Origin: a virus
DNA: 40,440 bases
Strand: one strand, 5' to 3'
IMG/VR virus record: IMGVR_UViG_3300009431_000051
Location: 1 to 40,440 of that record
The notes below the pieces were generated by a model. The model did not search any database. It had not been told where the DNA came from and saw nothing but the letters and a program-made list of their open reading frames with translations. Shown here one piece after another: positions 15,535 to 24,085 of this stretch (position 1 is the first letter of the stretch; each line of letters starts with the position of its first letter). The translations under genes were made by a program, and so were the position numbers.

Positions 15535-15541
15535 ACCCTCT
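15524..15541. terminator. Hairpin between convergent genes
   Basis: AGAGGG (15524-15529) pairs with CCCTCT (15536-15541) around a 6-base loop. The stem overlaps the stop codons of both the rightward endolysin operon and the leftward basic gene. The T tract is poor on both strands, so it may be a weak bidirectional terminator. Confidence 0.45.
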
Positions 15542-15848
15542 ACTTCATTGACTTCTTGCCCTTACACTTCCAGCGCTTTCGGCTTAGGTCGTTTGCGCAT
15601 GGTGGATTTTTACACTTCTTAATTCCTGCACTTCTAGCGCAATAAGCATCACCTTTTGCTGTTCCTGGCTGCACTCTTGCTTTACCGTCTTTAGCTTTAC
15701 CTGCTTGACCATACGAGCGCTTTACTTTCTTTCCTGTTTTCGGGTCTGTAACCATTTTTGCTTTCGCCTTACCCTTTGCTGGTTTACCCGTTTTCTTTTG
15801 CTTCTTCTTTGTGGTCTTGGTTCTTTGACCTCTTGAGTTTACTGGCAT
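15540..15848 (-). CDS. Small very basic protein with conserved Cys C-terminus
   Basis: This 102-residue protein is rich in Lys/Arg/Gly in the first half (TKTTKKKQKKTGKPAKGKAK), then PGTAKGDAYCARSAGI, CKNPPCANDLSRKRWKCKG and KKSM. The second half, with GDAYCARS, NDLSR+[RK]WKC+GKKSM and four or five Cys, matches a recurring phage protein type of unknown role. The basic arm suggests binding to nucleic acid. It is the only leftward gene between 11.9 and 16.9 kb and has its own TATAAT (15905-15910) and an AGAGG ribosome site. Confidence 0.65.
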   Translation of the reverse strand: MPVNSRGQRTKTTKKKQKKTGKPAKGKAKAKMVTDPKTGKKVKRSYGQAGKAKDGKARVQPGTAKGDAYCARSAGIKKCKNPPCANDLSRKRWKCKGKKSMK

Positions 15849-15904
15849 GTTGACCTCTTAAATTTAGTGTATAGGTATCATTAGACCTTTAGTTGATATA
15901 TTAC

Positions 15905-15910
15905 ATTATA
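15905..15910 (-). promoter_or_regulatory. -10 box upstream of the basic-protein gene
   Basis: TATAAT on the - strand (15910-15905) lies about 57 bp before the ATG at 15848. No clear -35 is visible at 17 bp. It is the only obvious promoter for this isolated leftward gene. Confidence 0.45.
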
Positions 15911-16098
15911 AAGGACTTTTACTGTTATGCTAGCTACTCAATATGCGAAACAGTTTTTAGAGTTGTCGCTCCGATATATCACGCCTATATGAATTTGTTA
16001 AATTCGGCTTGTGTGATCACATCAACATTAACTCGCTTTATCCCCGGTACTCAAGGTCGACGCACTAACCAGTATTAAATTAAATTGTTGGTGTTTTG

Positions 16099-16354
16099 CG
16101 GTAAGTACCGAATGCTTAATCAAGTGAGATACGTTAGAAGGGTGTGTCTAGGTAGGGTTTCCACCTACGCCGCATTAAGCACATTTCAGGGTAAGAATTT
16201 CACTTACGCTAGACACAAAAAAAGGCTTATTAGTACAAGCCCAGTAACTCGGGGGCTGATATAGCATAAGTGAGAAGTTTCCCACGAACACTAGACCTGT
16301 ACTAATAAACCCTGAATTACTATATCAATTTTAACGCGGCTTCTCACTTCCGCA
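16099..16354 (-). ncRNA. Structured non-coding RNA with interleaved helices
   Basis: The 617-bp gap 15849-16465 has no convincing gene, but it holds many perfect complementary segments. Pairs are: 16340-16349 with 16268-16277 (10 bp), 16320-16327 with 16257-16264 (8), 16298-16308 with 16227-16237 (11), 16309-16316 with 16185-16192 (8), 16209-16217 with 16143-16151 (9) and 16113-16120 with 16174-16181 (8), plus short hairpins at 16336-16353, 16238-16257, 16191-16207 and 16152-16168. The first three pairs mutually cross. A TTTGCTATAAT promoter places the RNA start near 16354, exactly at the 5' hairpin GCGG...CCGC. A U7 tract after GGCUU...AAGCC (16217-16241) could end a shorter form of about 137 nt. 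The 3' end and function are unknown. Confidence 0.6.
16217..16241 (-). terminator. Possible internal terminator of the 16.2-kb RNA
   Basis: On the - strand GGCUU (16241-16237), an 8-base loop, AAGCC (16228-16224) and U7 (16223-16217) form a plausible intrinsic terminator. The 11-bp long-range pairing of 16227-16237 with 16298-16308 would compete with it, so read-through could be conditional. Confidence 0.5.
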
Positions 16355-16360
16355 AGACAA

Positions 16361-16369
16361 ATTATAGCA
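16361..16369 (-). promoter_or_regulatory. Extended -10 promoter of the 16.2-kb RNA
   Basis: On the - strand the core TTTGCTATAAT (TATAAT at 16366-16361 with TG just upstream) is identical in 11 bases to the promoter core of the second non-coding RNA at 34620-34630. An imperfect TATARCTAAA palindrome lies 16-39 bp upstream. Confidence 0.7.
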
Positions 16370-16381
16370 AAGCTTAGAACA

Positions 16382-16405
16382 TTTTGAAATATACATATAG
16401 CTAAA
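16382..16405. promoter_or_regulatory. TATARCTAAA regulatory element (imperfect palindrome)
   Basis: The right half TATAGCTAAA (16396-16405) is perfect; the left half matches about 8 of 12 positions. It lies between the divergent 16.2-kb RNA promoter and the rightward gene at 16466, whose ATG is 60 bp from the half-site, the same distance as at 25.4 kb. Confidence 0.5.
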
Positions 16406-16465
16406 TCGAATTGATGAATTTTAAGTAGCATATAGAATCAAGCTATGAATTGAATGGAGTGAAAA

Positions 16466-16936: not shown

Positions 16937-19498
16937 TTATGAAACTAGAGTTTCACCGCATACAGTCTCAATAACCAACAGAACTAAATCTGTTAAGTTG
17001 CCACCTGTAGCAGTTAGTGTAATTTCATTTGTTGATGTGTCTAGATTTACTGACACGCCAACAGCTTGACCGTTATCAATTACCTGATACAGACACTTAG
17101 ATAAATCAAGTCCAGAAGCAAACTGTTTACTTACTCCGCTTGTTGTGTCCATCTTGAACCGCTTTTGTTTTGCCTTTAGCTCGCCCATGTTTACAGCTTC
17201 GGAATCTGAGCCAGATGCAGGAACAACAACGCTACCACCTTCGAAAACGCTGTCACCATAAGCATATAGCGCCTTGCTTCCTGCTGGTGCATACTTCGCG
17301 TCAGCAACAACTGCAATATCATTGTATGGGTATGGGTCAGCCTGTCGAGTGCCTGAGTAAGTTGCAACATCAAGATTTGAAATTGCACCAACTACGCCAC
17401 GGTCAGCCCCTGCGCCATCAGTACCAGCAAATGCAAACGCTGAGATATTACTGATAGATGCATTTTCAGCAATCATAGTAGCGCCAACATTAATACCTAA
17501 CTGAGCGTCATTAGATACGCTGTATGAGCCGTTAGCGATAATTGCGCTTGTTGCTGTTGTCACATTAGCTTCATTGTAAGAGCCGCTAAGAACTATTGAG
17601 AGGTTATTACATGAGCCGTCATAATGTGAGGCAATTGTATTGTGTGCATAGTTAGGTGCTGCCGCATTACCTGAACCTTGAGAGTTAACTAAGTTCTCAA
17701 CAAGTAAGGCGCGACAAGTGCCGGTTAATGACTCGCTACCGGTTTGATCTTTCTTAATGTAAAGACCGTAACTTGATGCCAAGTTATTATCTGTTTGGTC
17801 AATCTGCAAGGCTTTACCGGTAATAACCTGTGAGTTATCAGTTAGTGATACTGTGTCGTCTAGCTCAGCCTTAACAACTGGCCCTAGCTCTTGGCGCTCA
17901 ATTGAACCATGCGTAACTATAAGTTTTTCGCTACCGTCTAGAGTAATAGTAACATTATCTAGATTTGCTCGCGTTAGGTCTGTACCGTCACCTTTTTGGT
18001 AAATAAAATCAGTTAGCGCCATTGCACCAGCAGTGATTGATGAGACTTTCACAGTTAGCATATCGCCGACTTTAAAGTCATTACCTAGCAGAGTTACATC
18101 ACCGTCAAAAATAACAACTTCACCAGATGACATTGCAATGCTTGTGAATGCTTGACCGTTGCGTGCGTCAGCCTCTACAGCATCAAAGATACCATCAGTG
18201 CCAACTGAACCAACTAGTTCAATATTAGAGCTTGCTAGTACATCAATTTGCGATTGCAGGTTACTTACTGCTGCTGCTCTGGCTGTACTTTCTGCTGTAT
18301 CCGCTGCTGCTCGGTCTGTAGCTTCCTGGTTAACTGCTGCAATGCGCGCCGCTTCTTCTGCATCAATATTTGATTGAAGTGTCGTATCTGCGCTTGAGCG
18401 TGCAGAAGCTTCGCTATTGATGTTTGATTGCAGTGTCGAGTCAGCCGAAATCCTAGATGTTTCTTCTGCTGTGATATTAGCCTGCAAAGTGGAGTCAGCG
18501 CTTGCTCTAGAGCTTGCTTCACTGGCAATTGCTGCGTCAACTGCGCTCGATCTTGTTGCTGCCTCGCTTCGTATTGCTGCTCGGTCTGCTGTAGCTGATT
18601 CGTGTGCCGTTTCGCTTGCCTGGAATAATTGCTTGATGTTTTGGCCGTCAACAAATAGAGAGCCAGTAAAGCTACCCATATTTGAACCAGTAACACCTGA
18701 TAAGTTATTTAATCGAGTTGTTACCGCTGCCGTACCATCTGCGCCGCTAGACTCAACAGCATTAATAAGGGCTTCTAACTTCTCTAAAGCATCCGCTGTG
18801 TCTGCATTTGCAGAAATGGTCGTGAACGTTGCGCCGTGTGGTAATGTTTGGCCGCCCAAGTCGCTTGCGCCAGTACCGAACACAAGAGATGTAACACCAG
18901 TGTTTGAGTCGTAGTTAATACCTACGCCAGATACACTTAACAGTGCTCTAACTTCTGACGCGTCATATTTATCAGAGTCATTGATAAAGTCGTCAGCCGT
19001 GCCAGCATTGCCGCCCGTGTAAATATAAACCGTTTCAGTTGGTACAGTAGAGGCAGTTAAGAAAATCTGAGTGCCGCTGTCGTATACCGTACCGCCAACT
19101 GTAATTGTTCCGTCACCATTAAAAGTAGCAGTTGCTAGGAACGCAGCAAAGTTTGCACTTGTGGTGTCTTTAAGTACAGGACCGCGACCTAGGTTAGTAA
19201 AGCCAAGCACTGAACCAACAAGTGTTAGATAAAGCGTTGAGTCTGGGGCAATGCTTAAATTGTTTTGCTTTGTGTTTAGCTGCGCTTGCAGCTGCTCAGT
19301 GTCTAGCGTTGTCGTAGCATTCGGGCTAGATAGTGAGTTTACAATAGCTGCCTGCGTGGTTGTGTCTGCAATGGTTTCAACTTGTGACTTGCGAACAAGC
19401 TCGTTAGCTGTTGCTGCATCGTTTTGCACTGTTACTTTTCCGGCATCTAGAATACTGTTGCCGTTTAGGTTTTTATCTTGGTAAATTTGACCAGCCAT
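16937..19498 (-). CDS. Large fibre protein with tandem coiled-coil repeats
   Basis: This 853-residue protein has an N-terminal DKNLNGNSILDAGKVTVQND segment like those found in phage fibre proteins, a beta-rich middle (about 90-270) and then a coiled-coil run at about 300-420 made of repeats of the type SADSTLQSNINSE and ASSRASADSTLQ. A beta-rich C-terminal half follows (LSIVLSGSYNEANV, TSAIIANGSYS). It is the downstream gene of a two-gene fibre operon and starts 62 bp from the larger one with an AAGGA site. Fibres that extend beyond the short P22-like spike are a reasonable role. Its exact position on the virion is unknown. Confidence 0.7.
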   Translation of the reverse strand: MAGQIYQDKNLNGNSILDAGKVTVQNDAATANELVRKSQVETIADTTTQAAIVNSLSSPNATTTLDTEQLQAQLNTKQNNLSIAPDSTLYLTLVGSVLGFTNLGRGPVLKDTTSANFAAFLATATFNGDGTITVGGTVYDSGTQIFLTASTVPTETVYIYTGGNAGTADDFINDSDKYDASEVRALLSVSGVGINYDSNTGVTSLVFGTGASDLGGQTLPHGATFTTISANADTADALEKLEALINAVESSGADGTAAVTTRLNNLSGVTGSNMGSFTGSLFVDGQNIKQLFQASETAHESATADRAAIRSEAATRSSAVDAAIASEASSRASADSTLQANITAEETSRISADSTLQSNINSEASARSSADTTLQSNIDAEEAARIAAVNQEATDRAAADTAESTARAAAVSNLQSQIDVLASSNIELVGSVGTDGIFDAVEADARNGQAFTSIAMSSGEVVIFDGDVTLLGNDFKVGDMLTVKVSSITAGAMALTDFIYQKGDGTDLTRANLDNVTITLDGSEKLIVTHGSIERQELGPVVKAELDDTVSLTDNSQVITGKALQIDQTDNNLASSYGLYIKKDQTGSESLTGTCRALLVENLVNSQGSGNAAAPNYAHNTIASHYDGSCNNLSIVLSGSYNEANVTTATSAIIANGSYSVSNDAQLGINVGATMIAENASISNISAFAFAGTDGAGADRGVVGAISNLDVATYSGTRQADPYPYNDIAVVADAKYAPAGSKALYAYGDSVFEGGSVVVPASGSDSEAVNMGELKAKQKRFKMDTTSGVSKQFASGLDLSKCLYQVIDNGQAVGVSVNLDTSTNEITLTATGGNLTDLVLLVIETVCGETLVS

Positions 19499-19560: not shown

Positions 19561-22500
19561 TTATTTATAAAAAACAATACCCGCTGGTTTCGCGTTTCCA
19601 AACTTAACAACAAAATAACTGTTGCTGTCTGAATTTGTGTGATAGTCAATATCAACATCAGCCTGGGTGAAATACTCAGATTCTATTGAATCTAAGTTAT
19701 TCTCAATAGAGTAATCTCCATGACTGTCTGGTAACTGACCATCGTTATACAGGTTTACAGGAACACCGCCAGTGCTGCTTCCTGTGTGATTGTGATCAAC
19801 ATCTGTAACAATCAAAACCCAAGCATTCAGTGAGTCACTAAATACACAGTAGGTATTTGTTCCATCGTCCAATCTATAAGCGTTGCGCCTTGATTCTGTA
19901 GACCATTGGCCGCTAGCGTCAATTGATATTGAGCCAACAGAGTTGTAATGTCCTGTGTAATTGTCAGAGCTTGTTACATTAATGTTTAGCTCGCTAATTA
20001 GGTTGTCAGTATCAAGCACCGTTACAACTACGTTTTGTGGTCTGTATTGATTGCCATCTGCATTTGTTGGGTAATCCACATTAACAGTCGATTCATTTAT
20101 AAACTTCTTAAATTGCGGTTCCTGAGCCTGTGATATTGTCGAGCTGATAACCTTTGATTGGCTAAAGTTTAGAACATACTCATCTTTTGCATAATCCGCG
20201 AACACTTCTACAACAGTATCTTTAGGGCAAACACTAGGCACATTGTTAGTTATCTGCGTGCCGTTTCTGTCGTACCACTCAAAAGCAACATCAGCATTGT
20301 GCGAGTTAATGTACTTAAAGTAACCGTGAGGTTTATCATCTGAGTTCATACCCTGCAACAATTCAACTTTTACTGTCGCGTTGCTTATCTTGAGTATTTT
20401 ACCGTTGTCACCATAAGTTACGGTTTTGGTTGAGCCACCGCCAGATATTAATGCATCATAGCCGGACTTGGCATTGAATTGATCCTCTAGAATGTAACCA
20501 GACGTCCCATTATCTAAACGAGTCCAAAAGAAGTTTGATTTTGTCCCATCATCCCAATCAACATAAACCCTGCATTCCCACAACTCACCAATCCTTATTC
20601 GCTTCTCAGATAGCGCATTGCCAGGGCCTAAGCTAATTCTGTAATCTCTTGTCTCTCTTGTGGATTGGTCAATTATTACTCTAAACTCTGTATTACCTTC
20701 GTCATTGTTTAAATTTATCCTGCCAACACTTGACGCCTGATTAAGCGTATTAAGGTAATTACCGACAAGCCCTGACTGAGTGACTTCATCACTACCCAGA
20801 AATGTGATTTTTGGAACACCTAAGCCTTGCCCTTTGTAATCATCACTTGGGTCTGATGATATTGCGTTGTCGACGTATTCTTTCGTAACCAGCTCTTTGT
20901 CTTTAAATGCGGTGTAGTTCGGAATCTCTACCGCGCCAGTGGACCATATTTTTAACTCATCTCTGTTTACTGTCATTACAGTGCTAGAGTTTTTACTTAA
21001 CTCTAAAGGTCCGCTAATCTCTGTTGGTAAGTTAAGTGAAAGTGAACTTTCGCCCTGATTAAGCAATAAAGATAAATTCCCGTCTGCATCCTCGACCGAA
21101 ACATCACCAACAACTTTAAGTGATTTTAAAGCCTCAAGCTTTTTATGTGCTGCTAAGGATGATTGTTTAAGCTCAAAAACCTTATCACCTAAAACACCGG
21201 TGTCCTTGTTTTTAAGCTTAAATACCATATTCCCGGTGTATTCGACTTGTGACCAGCCGTTTACGTCTTGATAAAGAGCTAGCGGATAGAAATTTCTATC
21301 ATTACCGTATTTGCCGTCGTATGCAGACTGCACTTTATCCAGGTCGGCATTGGTGAACTTCTCTACGTAACCATTATCAGGAATTGCAGGGACGTCTTTC
21401 ACCAAGGCAACTTTACTTGACCCCACATAAATGGGAGCTAAGGCAGTGATCTGGGTGTCCATGACAGACATTATCGTCTTAGTTTCACCAGTAATGATGT
21501 CTTTTTGATTTAACCTAAGCTCTCTAGTTGCATCAATTTCAGTTATAAGCGAGTCATTCTGCTTAATAACTGCTGAGTAATTAGGTAGACCAGTACCGCT
21601 TGAGTCAATGTTGATAGTTTTAAATGTTGGATCTTCTGGGATAACCTTGTCTAGCTCAACTTTTACTATTCGAGTGTTTGTATCGTCATCAACTTCAAAA
21701 CCAACCGCTGGCGATTCAGCAAATACAAAAGCATTTACAGGTGTGTTGTATTGCTCATCAGGTGCATAAGGTATGTTAAACGCTGCCTTAGGTCTGATTG
21801 ATACGTTGGTGAATCTACCGTCAAGTTGCACATCCCAAGCGGTATCAGTGCGAACCATGGTTATATTGTTTGCTGGGTACTTGGCTATTTGGCGACCTTT
21901 TGAGTCGTTGAAGTAAACAGCAAAGTAATAATTATTGTATGCGTCATCGCCGTCCCTATCCGCAGCAATCTTAATTGTGTCACCCGTTTTAAATTGGGAG
22001 TGATCAACTAAAGTTATTTGCATTGGGATACTAATACTTGGTGGTGTCTGAATAATATTTATTATTTTGCCAACATAGGTATTATCAACGGATCGCGTTG
22101 AATCAACTGTTACATCAAAAGTCAGTACTGGAGTATTACCATCAAGTGAAATCTTGCTGTTTCCGCCATCATCCTCCGACTTTAGACCGTCACCCATAAT
22201 CAAACCTAGTGACTTGTTAGCGTCTACAATAACCTGACCAGCAACGCCACCCATGCCAATCCAGTTACCGCCCTGTGATTCATATCTATCATCAGGAAGG
22301 TTGTTATTACCTTGCAGCACTCTTGCGTATAGTCCATCTTCCGGTGTTGGGTATGCAGCTAGTAAATCAGATGTTGACTCGAAAACGCCTACTTCATTTG
22401 TACCCCTAGCTGTGGTAGATAGCTCAATATTTACCGTTCCGCCCGTATCTTTAGCTTTTACTACATCAAACGCGCCGCTAAAGTTTAACGTATCTGCCGC

Positions 22501-24078
22501 TGATAGGACTTGAACACCATCTTTGTTGATATTAACGCCTGGCAAAAGGTCGCCTGATGGGTTCCAGCTTACTATTGGATTTTTAGGATCTGAATCATCA
22601 ACAAGTATTTTATTGCCAGCAACAATAGACTCAACACCATTAACAGTAACGGTCTTTTCTTCAAGCTCTGTAATATCAAGCTTGTAATAAATTTCTTGTT
22701 GAGCATCGCCAAGTAAACTAATTTGATCTTGTGAGCCAGTACCGACCGCGCCAGTGAATCGAAAGTAAACAGATTGATTAGCTTCGACGGTTAGCGGTTT
22801 TGTAAATGTGACTGTGTTGTCACCATCAACCAAATCAACAACCTGCGTACGGTCATCATTTAATGAGACTTGAACAGGCGACCAAGTGCCAATGTGTTTA
22901 ACTGTAATGGCGTTTATTTGAATAGGCTTATCACCATTAACATAGGTTGTTTCTGGTCTATCGGATGTGATTGCAGTGTCAAAAACACCCTGTGGCATAG
23001 CTTCCGCCTGAGACCCTAAATCACGCGCCACAATATCGGACGTTTCTATCCTGAATTGCTCGCCAAACTTACCAAACCTATTTTGACTTGTTTCTATGCT
23101 ATCCAGTAAGTCAAGGTCTTTCTCATCCTGCGTATACGTGACCATGCGAGGGTAAAAGCCAACACCAAAACCAAGGTCTAACTCTTGACCTTGAAGCTCT
23201 AGATTTTCACCAGGCTGCGCCTGTACATTGAAACGGAATCGAATGTTAGCTGTTGAGATTTTAACTAAGCCAGATTCTACTAATGTGAATTGGTCATTAT
23301 CACCCTGCGCTACAAAGTCTTGGCCCTTACCTTCGTTAAAGTCGTCCTCTGTCACATTCTCCCACACCATCGCGTCACCGCTAGGTAATAAGTTTTCAAG
23401 CCAGATGCGAACACCTGATTGCGCTTTCTTCGAAAACATTCTGAACTTGCGAATGAGTGTGTTATCACCGTCTTGGAATTCAAAGCTTAGTTTGTTGGCG
23501 TTTGAGTATTCAGCCTCAAAGGGGAATTGATAAACCCACTTAGCCGGAACAAAATAACGGTACTTAGGCACGCTCACGCCATCAGCAAAAATAGCGTCAC
23601 GCTCTGCTTCTGTTTCATATACAAAACTTACAACTGGCGTTGACTCTCTATCATCTGCTAGGTTATCAACACCTAGATAGCCGCCTTTATCTGAAATCTT
23701 AACAGCGGGGCCGACAAATACAGATTCCTGAGGTGCAATAATATCTTTAGTAAATACCACTGCATTGTCAGTTTCTTTTACCGCAGAAGCAACTAGCTTA
23801 CCGTTTTCAACTTTCGGGATACTGCCCTCTGCTAGAAGCTCAACGCCTGTAATGCTACCAATGTTAACAACCTCGTCATTGGCGCGAACCATGTATAGAA
23901 TGCCGTCTTGAATATAGCCATTAACGAATGATTGAGCGTTTGCGCCGTTAGCGTCAGCAAATTTATTCAGTGTCTCTGCGGTAATTGAGCGTGTTCTTTG
24001 ATTGTCTTTATCCCAAATGACGAATAGGTCATCTGCTAATAACTCTGGATTTTGAGTGAGTTTATTTATGCGTGTCAT
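19561..24078 (-). CDS. Very large tail-fibre or baseplate-like protein
   Basis: This 1,505-residue protein starts at ATG 24078 (AAGG 7 bases upstream; a TTG further up is less likely). It begins with a helical TRINKLTQNPELLADDLFVI segment, typical of proteins that dock fibres, then a long series of beta-rich modules with many Asp/Asn/Gly and Thr and few Cys. KLSFEFQDGDNTLIRKF, TVNGVESIVAGNKILVDD and a C-terminal FTQADVDIDYHTNSDSN-type repeat (also TVNVDYPTNADGNQY earlier) are examples. It is probably a host-recognition or adsorption structure and shares an operon with the 853-residue fibre. A folded RNA leader precedes it. Confidence 0.68.
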   Translation of the reverse strand: MTRINKLTQNPELLADDLFVIWDKDNQRTRSITAETLNKFADANGANAQSFVNGYIQDGILYMVRANDEVVNIGSITGVELLAEGSIPKVENGKLVASAVKETDNAVVFTKDIIAPQESVFVGPAVKISDKGGYLGVDNLADDRESTPVVSFVYETEAERDAIFADGVSVPKYRYFVPAKWVYQFPFEAEYSNANKLSFEFQDGDNTLIRKFRMFSKKAQSGVRIWLENLLPSGDAMVWENVTEDDFNEGKGQDFVAQGDNDQFTLVESGLVKISTANIRFRFNVQAQPGENLELQGQELDLGFGVGFYPRMVTYTQDEKDLDLLDSIETSQNRFGKFGEQFRIETSDIVARDLGSQAEAMPQGVFDTAITSDRPETTYVNGDKPIQINAITVKHIGTWSPVQVSLNDDRTQVVDLVDGDNTVTFTKPLTVEANQSVYFRFTGAVGTGSQDQISLLGDAQQEIYYKLDITELEEKTVTVNGVESIVAGNKILVDDSDPKNPIVSWNPSGDLLPGVNINKDGVQVLSAADTLNFSGAFDVVKAKDTGGTVNIELSTTARGTNEVGVFESTSDLLAAYPTPEDGLYARVLQGNNNLPDDRYESQGGNWIGMGGVAGQVIVDANKSLGLIMGDGLKSEDDGGNSKISLDGNTPVLTFDVTVDSTRSVDNTYVGKIINIIQTPPSISIPMQITLVDHSQFKTGDTIKIAADRDGDDAYNNYYFAVYFNDSKGRQIAKYPANNITMVRTDTAWDVQLDGRFTNVSIRPKAAFNIPYAPDEQYNTPVNAFVFAESPAVGFEVDDDTNTRIVKVELDKVIPEDPTFKTINIDSSGTGLPNYSAVIKQNDSLITEIDATRELRLNQKDIITGETKTIMSVMDTQITALAPIYVGSSKVALVKDVPAIPDNGYVEKFTNADLDKVQSAYDGKYGNDRNFYPLALYQDVNGWSQVEYTGNMVFKLKNKDTGVLGDKVFELKQSSLAAHKKLEALKSLKVVGDVSVEDADGNLSLLLNQGESSLSLNLPTEISGPLELSKNSSTVMTVNRDELKIWSTGAVEIPNYTAFKDKELVTKEYVDNAISSDPSDDYKGQGLGVPKITFLGSDEVTQSGLVGNYLNTLNQASSVGRINLNNDEGNTEFRVIIDQSTRETRDYRISLGPGNALSEKRIRIGELWECRVYVDWDDGTKSNFFWTRLDNGTSGYILEDQFNAKSGYDALISGGGSTKTVTYGDNGKILKISNATVKVELLQGMNSDDKPHGYFKYINSHNADVAFEWYDRNGTQITNNVPSVCPKDTVVEVFADYAKDEYVLNFSQSKVISSTISQAQEPQFKKFINESTVNVDYPTNADGNQYRPQNVVVTVLDTDNLISELNINVTSSDNYTGHYNSVGSISIDASGQWSTESRRNAYRLDDGTNTYCVFSDSLNAWVLIVTDVDHNHTGSSTGGVPVNLYNDGQLPDSHGDYSIENNLDSIESEYFTQADVDIDYHTNSDSNSYFVVKFGNAKPAGIVFYK

Positions 24079-24085
24079 AGCCAAG

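Follow-up and report, generated by a model that had tools for sequence, protein, structure and literature searches.

What occupies a gap in a phage genome that holds no credible gene and is crowded with complementary segments? The window analyzed here is a virus record of 40,440 bases that encodes a portal protein, a large terminase, a major head protein and a DnaB-like helicase. Its gap at 15849-16465 had been proposed, in a sequence-only reading, to specify a non-coding RNA whose long helices cross one another and which belongs to no known family. The comparative evidence presented here, obtained without experiments, supports that central claim and shows that the gap encodes a conserved, modular, structured non-coding RNA of about 500 nt in minus-strand sense, running from 16353 to about 15850. 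We regard the structure as real because matched mutations across dozens of phages preserved pairing. The reality of the RNA is as firm as comparative evidence allows without experiments, and its function is a matter of inference. The element begins with a sigma-70-like promoter and an interlocked 5' domain that extends to a U-tract. A linker closed by a covarying stem comes next, followed by a 3' domain that covaries independently and ends about 29 nt short of the start codon of the cargo gene, which varies (Table 1).

Excess complementarity in a gap without genes

The proposed absence of a credible gene held, with no minus-strand ORF of at least 60 aa in the gap and a longest open frame of 38 aa in the sense strand of the element. 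A conserved protein frame across the region would have refuted the RNA reading; we looked for one and none crosses the element, and a protein-coding explanation was rejected. The small hypothetical proteins annotated across the element or antisense to it in HS5, Pq0 and BS5 (L001 3073-3162 and 3338-3478, L095 1661-1774, L096 1595-1708) look spurious and are probably not genes.

Between 16099 and 16371 the minus strand contains one perfect complement of 11 bp, one of 10 bp, one of 9 bp and four of 8 bp. Dinucleotide-preserving shuffles had a mean of 0.5 helices of at least 8 bp, and 0 of 400 reached seven. The folding z-score of the same segment was -5.0 for the minus strand and -1.8 for the plus strand. 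One 8-bp pair (16174-16181/16113-16120) is probably a chance match, being absent by eye from the facing linkers of relatives; no alignment test was applied to it.

In the window, the RNA shares its orientation with a single small gene, which faces convergent genes; in relatives it runs in the same sense as late or accessory genes. The minus strand of the window also encodes two very long late proteins, one of 1507 aa at 19561-24084 and one of 853 aa at 16937-19498, neither with a PHROG match.

Table 1. Positions of the RNA element, its flanking signals and the perfect complements of its 5' portion
Feature	Position	Strand	Detail
Sigma-70-like promoter	16361-16388	minus	TTCAAA 16388-16383, 16 nt, extended -10 TGcTATAAT 16366-16361; 10/12 matches, TG present
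P1 hairpin	16336-16353	minus	GCGG/CCGC, 10-nt loop b AAGUGAGAAG (16340-16349); from sequence
c	16320-16327	minus	UGAUAUAG; linker between P1 and d
d	16290-16311	minus	5' arm of long hairpin, 22 nt, contains 11-bp core 16298-16308
Apical region	16249-16287	minus	UCG/CGA and GGG/CCC pairs (e), encloses b' and c'; alignments A1, A3
b'	16268-16277	minus	CUUCUCACUU; partner of P1 loop, first crossing helix
c'	16257-16264	minus	CUAUAUCA; second crossing helix
d'	16224-16245	minus	3' arm of long hairpin; inverted repeat
U7 tract	16217-16223	minus	directly after d', terminator-like; terminator scan matches d + U-tract
Linker	16143-16217	minus	closed by f/f' (UGUGUCUAG 16217-16209 / CUAGACACA 16151-16143); holds T-arm-like hairpin
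b''	16122-16129	minus	UCUCACUU; possible second P1-loop partner, tentative
3' domain, type T1	15883-16073	minus	16073-16064/15934-15921, 16036-16032/15949-15945, 15917-15912/15888-15883
RBS and cargo gene	15540-15859	minus	AAGAGG (15859-15854), gene 15540-15848; start 29 nt after conserved UAAUGA
11-bp complement	16298-16308/16227-16237	minus	core of d/d'
10-bp complement	16340-16349/16268-16277	minus	b/b'
9-bp complement	16209-16217/16143-16151	minus	stem f/f'
8-bp complement	16320-16327/16257-16264	minus	c/c'
8-bp complement	16309-16316/16185-16192	minus	rival pairing
8-bp complement	16342-16349/16122-16129	minus	b/b''
8-bp complement	16174-16181/16113-16120	minus	

Distribution among phages

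Low-stringency blastn matched two blocks of the gap in Vibrio and Pseudoalteromonas phages, and further relatives were gathered by chained searches from relative to relative together with DNA-pattern scans of IMG/VR. Homologous or equivalent elements are carried by about 41 isolate phages (about 35 of Vibrio and 6 of Pseudoalteromonas) and some 25 contigs, the carriers including the culturable phages Seahorse, NF, phiV208, H105/1, HS2, BS5 and Pq0 and the Nahant collection. We sorted members into class I, with 14 distinct members (the window, H105/1, NF, 1.122.A and contigs), and class II (Pq0, BS5, 1.054, 1.085 and contigs); the HS2 sequence is the same as that of contig L100. The class I model R1 found no match in 395 Enterobacterales genomes, a search that lacked a positive control, and all 38 matches from a contig scan for the 3' domain failed the profile.

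The 5' domain is interlocked

In most relatives a TATAAT box is followed about 10 nt further on by P1, then by a linker, the long hairpin d and at least five U. P1 and its loop are present in all aligned relatives. In all 27 members tested across the classes, b' paired better with its own P1 loop than with swapped ones (0 of 2000 permutations), at a pairing energy of -10.1 kcal/mol versus -6.6 kcal/mol. In the class I alignment A3, 100% of b/b' cells were paired and three of six pairs were doubly changed. The helix was also kept in seven relatives picked as still more divergent; examples of b/b' with other loop sequences in very divergent relatives are GUCGAAG/CUUCGAC, AGUCGUGU/ACACGAC and GUGAAAG/CUUUCAC. 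The second crossing helix, c/c', is Watson-Crick at 8 of 8 positions in all 14 class I members despite about ten different sequences, with 100% of A3 cells paired and three doubly changed pairs. The 22 pairs of d/d' showed 95.8% of A3 cells paired, and seven of the pairs were doubly changed.

For these A3 helices, the paired cells, the doubly changed pairs and cells, and the covariation score were never reached in 500 shuffles, and sliding the alignment by 1-3 columns abolished the pairing signal. A structure-free scan of A3 recovered only c/c', d/d' and b/b'. Collectively, these data show that the 5' domain is an interlocked fold in which b/b' and c/c' cross d and, in class I, each other. Pairing evidence for helix e is weak. 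The unpaired core of the apical region is conserved in class I, with invariant nucleotides GUUCGUGGG...UUAUG...GAGUU.

An obvious objection is that the locus is a DNA-level element, or merely a set of plain terminators or repeats with chance complementarity. Its one support is that d with the U-tract matches a terminator scan. Against it stand the double-sided covariation of the crossing helices and the G-U pairs, which exist only on the minus strand: A3 positions 41/131, 55/117 and 59/115 are G-U in almost all members. This explanation is all but excluded, and from the conserved G-U pairs of d we assign the RNA to the minus strand.

Much of what the sequence-only reading had claimed for this domain held. 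Every helix it listed was confirmed in place, in numbers far beyond chance, as were the order b c d b' c' d' and the statement that one partner (b) makes up exactly the loop of the GCGG/CCGC hairpin. The covariation check that it had proposed for homologous phages shows that all three crossing helices covary. The extended -10 promoter with which it placed the 5' end at the first hairpin is present in the sequence; the transcript start is inferred. Its second partner for the 5' loop, b'', is only weakly supported, with pairing to the P1 loop in 18 of 27 members (4 of 2000 permutations). With merely these members, b'' was dropped as a universal second partner and is kept as tentative.

The U-tract and possible antitermination

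At least five U follow d' in nearly all relatives, and d with the U-tract meets the criterion for an intrinsic terminator, namely a G+C-containing hairpin followed by a U-tract; termination activity itself is inferred. A terminator-like hairpin inside the element and near its promoter, beyond which covarying RNA continues, could suggest an antiterminator like put of phage HK022. In such a reading the 5' domain would bind the elongating RNA polymerase and so pass its own U-tract and later terminators of the late operon, which would suit the sense orientation among late genes in relatives. However, the pairing here involves the terminator-like hairpin itself. Elements of the put type are short and precede the terminators that they suppress, which argues against this reading, and HK022 put is much shorter and made of simple hairpins. 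We found no similarity to it, and the resemblance, that of a phage RNA element acting on terminators, is by analogy only. We consider a put-like role unlikely, and the polymerase binding it presupposes is inferred.

Two classes with a different helix order

Class II preserves the plan with a different core. An inner GGGG/CCCC helix holds c' in its loop and is followed by b', giving the order b c d e c' e' b' d', versus b c d e b' c' e' d' in class I. Class II c/c' pairing is member-specific (-12.2 for own versus -7.6 for swapped partners; 0 of 5000 permutations). Both classes are found with the same 3' domain, and because the same domain follows both, they resemble interchangeable modules. Class II sequences scored 25-33 bits against model R1, and antisense self-matches reached 31 bits. 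As some antisense self-matches score about as high as class II, this test leaves common descent of the classes unproven.

For hammerhead ribozymes, non-circular rearrangement of a single RNA has been reported as a novelty (PMC10085705). The likeness here is that the order of b' and c' is swapped around helix e between two classes; the differences are that the phage RNA shows no sign of self-cleavage and that the classes may not share descent. A bolder reading is conceivable, in which the element is a categorically new phage RNA machine whose interlocked core exists in topologically permuted versions: in class I, b' precedes c' within the apical loop, and in class II it comes after e'. Set in front of tRNAs, of 3' RNA domains of several unrelated kinds and of exchangeable cargo, the core would be a module and might act during infection as a structural or catalytic RNA instead of a mere leader. 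We advance this only as a possibility, and the function it implies is inferred.

A covarying linker that can carry tRNAs

In most members the stem f/f' follows the U-tract directly and closes a linker of 30-107 nt. Sequences vary from member to member, yet the two arms match in all 22 (0 of 5000 permutations). Because f/f' lies beyond the U-tract and covaries, we infer that some transcripts cross the U-tract. The linker is absent from H105/1, Pq0, vB_VnaS-L3, 1.003.O and most of the V. breoganii group. Genuine tRNA genes replace it in Seahorse, vB_VaM_H2 and 1.085.O (records L004, L021 and L027), and a tRNA lies just behind it in records L098 and L101. ARAGORN detected no tRNA or tmRNA in the window, and the window and NF linkers are tRNA-like only, with an acceptor-like stem f and, in the window, a T-arm-like hairpin. 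The linker of NF and phiV208 (L023 2721-2828 and the same region of L024) has T-arm-like GGUUCGAGUU and GGUUCGAUUCC inside an acceptor-like stem; it is not recognized as a tRNA.

The 9-bp helix already noted by the sequence-only reading is this stem f/f'. The extent then given to the RNA, to about 16099, was too short, as the linker stem and the covarying 3' domain carry it to about 15850. Also unsuccessful was the proposed switch of a terminator against a long-range helix, in which 16309-16316 would pair with 16185-16192 at the expense of hairpin d: this pairing is found only in the window, is not conserved and is attributed to chance. No conserved, mutually exclusive pairing for d, the mark of a riboswitch or attenuator, was found among the relatives, which leaves no evidence of a regulated switch.

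These observations bear on a further rival, an attenuator that senses a ligand or protein. The unpaired core (GUUCGUGGG, UUAUG, GAGUU) would bind a factor that stabilizes or opens d. Invariant unpaired nucleotides in class I, a double pseudoknot, a terminator-like end and a downstream gene speak for it. Against it, no conserved helix competes with d and the rival pairing is window-specific, the cargo genes have no common pathway, and the class II core differs. A sensing role is thus improbable, and binding of any factor is inferred.

The 3' domain and its cargo

The 3' domain of the window belongs to type T1, a structure of about 250 nt common to the window, HS5 and most Vibrio members. It covaries in its own right: of its 24 pairs 13 are doubly changed, 96.4% of cells are paired, and none of 500 shuffles did as well. 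A structure-free scan recovers its main helices. By eye, a second type follows the same 5' domain in H105/1, Pq0 and 1.054, and a third occurs in HS2, BS5 and contigs L088 and L091.

The cargo gene of the window encodes a Lys-rich basic protein of 102 aa without a PHROG match. Among the T1 records examined, an ORF starts 27-32 nt after UAAUGA in 11 of 23, with other distances in the rest, and a purine-rich site usually precedes the ORF start. Cargo genes vary (a methylase, a phosphatase, a T5orf172-like protein, small proteins) and share no common pathway. We infer that RNA and cargo share a transcript because the spacing from UAAUGA to the start codon is nearly fixed in many members despite the differing genes.

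Relation to known RNAs

In Rfam 15, no family matched the window at gathering thresholds or at the permissive E <= 10, nor 11 relatives at E <= 1. The covariance models of GOLLD and ROOL had no match in the window or the 11 relatives, and neither did ribozyme models (HDV/theta, twister, pistol, hammerhead) in the same scans. We found no description of this RNA in the open-access literature searched. The family, undescribed in that literature and unnamed, groups with large, modular, tRNA-associated phage RNAs. Theta (HDV-like) ribozymes are likewise pseudoknotted phage RNAs adjoining tRNAs (PMC10879173); the present RNA differs in having no Rfam match, in lying 5' of the tRNAs with an intervening U-tract and in having no identified cleavage site.

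In organization GOLLD and ROOL come closest; both occur near tRNA islands, and the GOLLD linker sometimes holds tRNAs (PMC12286853). GOLLD, an ornate RNA found in phages and prophages, resembles the present RNA in being phage-borne, large and pseudoknotted, often near tRNAs and sometimes with tRNAs in its linker, and in having one conserved and one variable half; association with tRNAs is met in relatives (in the linker of L004, L021 and L027, behind it in L098 and L101) and not in the window. ROOL, too, is a phage or prophage RNA near tRNA islands, with multiple pseudoknots and no known protein partner (PMC12286853); it shows no sequence or structure match, and its helix plan and size differ.

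The main rival to our preferred model is a trans-acting particle RNA like GOLLD or ROOL, independent, abundant and late, whose linker tolerates or carries tRNAs and whose cargo is incidental. In favor are the promoter of its own, the free combination of several 3' types and 5' classes with no fixed cargo, and the tRNAs in or just behind the linker, as reported for GOLLD and ROOL (PMC12286853). On the other side, no sequence or model match links it to either family; its length is about 500 nt versus more than 800 nt for many GOLLD; and here the 3' part is exchanged and the 5' part recurs, the reverse of GOLLD. Moreover, a U-tract separates the domains, the RNA ends at a ribosome-binding site, spacing to the start codon is nearly fixed in many members, and assembly into a homo-oligomeric cage, as expected of a GOLLD-like RNA, has no data behind it. 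Such a particle remains possible.

A proposed leader and small RNA

The model we prefer, which we would as readily see fail as hold, is that of a self-contained leader combined with a small RNA, the knotted 5' domain setting partial termination and RNA stability. Transcription would begin at the RNA's own promoter, and the 5' domain would fold during synthesis, b pairing with b' and c with c'. These two helices would tether both strands of d, so that d zips up just when the polymerase arrives at the U-tract. Transcription would end at that point in some complexes, yielding a compact RNA of about 135 nt that resists nucleases, and in the others would run on through the linker or tRNAs and the 3' domain into the cargo gene. 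The whole element would then be a stable, partly attenuated leader of its cargo.

Support for the leader, enough to keep it level with doubt, comes from the covariation of the crossing helices and the 3' domain and from conservation of TATAAT, the U-tract, f/f' and the cargo spacing. Start, partial termination and stability are all inferred in the absence of transcript data, and the U-tract may be structural. In the Vibrio breoganii phages L006, L020, L021 and L028, no credible start codon comes before 120 nt, a distance that fits a leader less well.

Very few large structured phage RNAs have been described, and it is open what the best known of them, GOLLD and ROOL, do. This RNA occurs in culturable phages, is small, has helices that can be broken and restored singly and offers natural module swaps, which make function, termination and stability directly testable. 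The order of the interlocking helices further makes it a good case for co-transcriptional RNA folding and structure prediction.

Variation within T1

Records L025 and L026, from Vibrio breoganii phages, keep the start and end of T1 with a different middle and are likely recombinant. T1 also contains two copies of GUGRYAUAYC, at 15982-15973 and 15905-15896 on the minus strand of the window and at the same place in relatives. Pairing of the copies to a common partner is inconsistent by eye. The two copies change together between phages, appearing as GUGUCGUAC twice, GUGUCACAC twice or GUGGCAUAUC twice.
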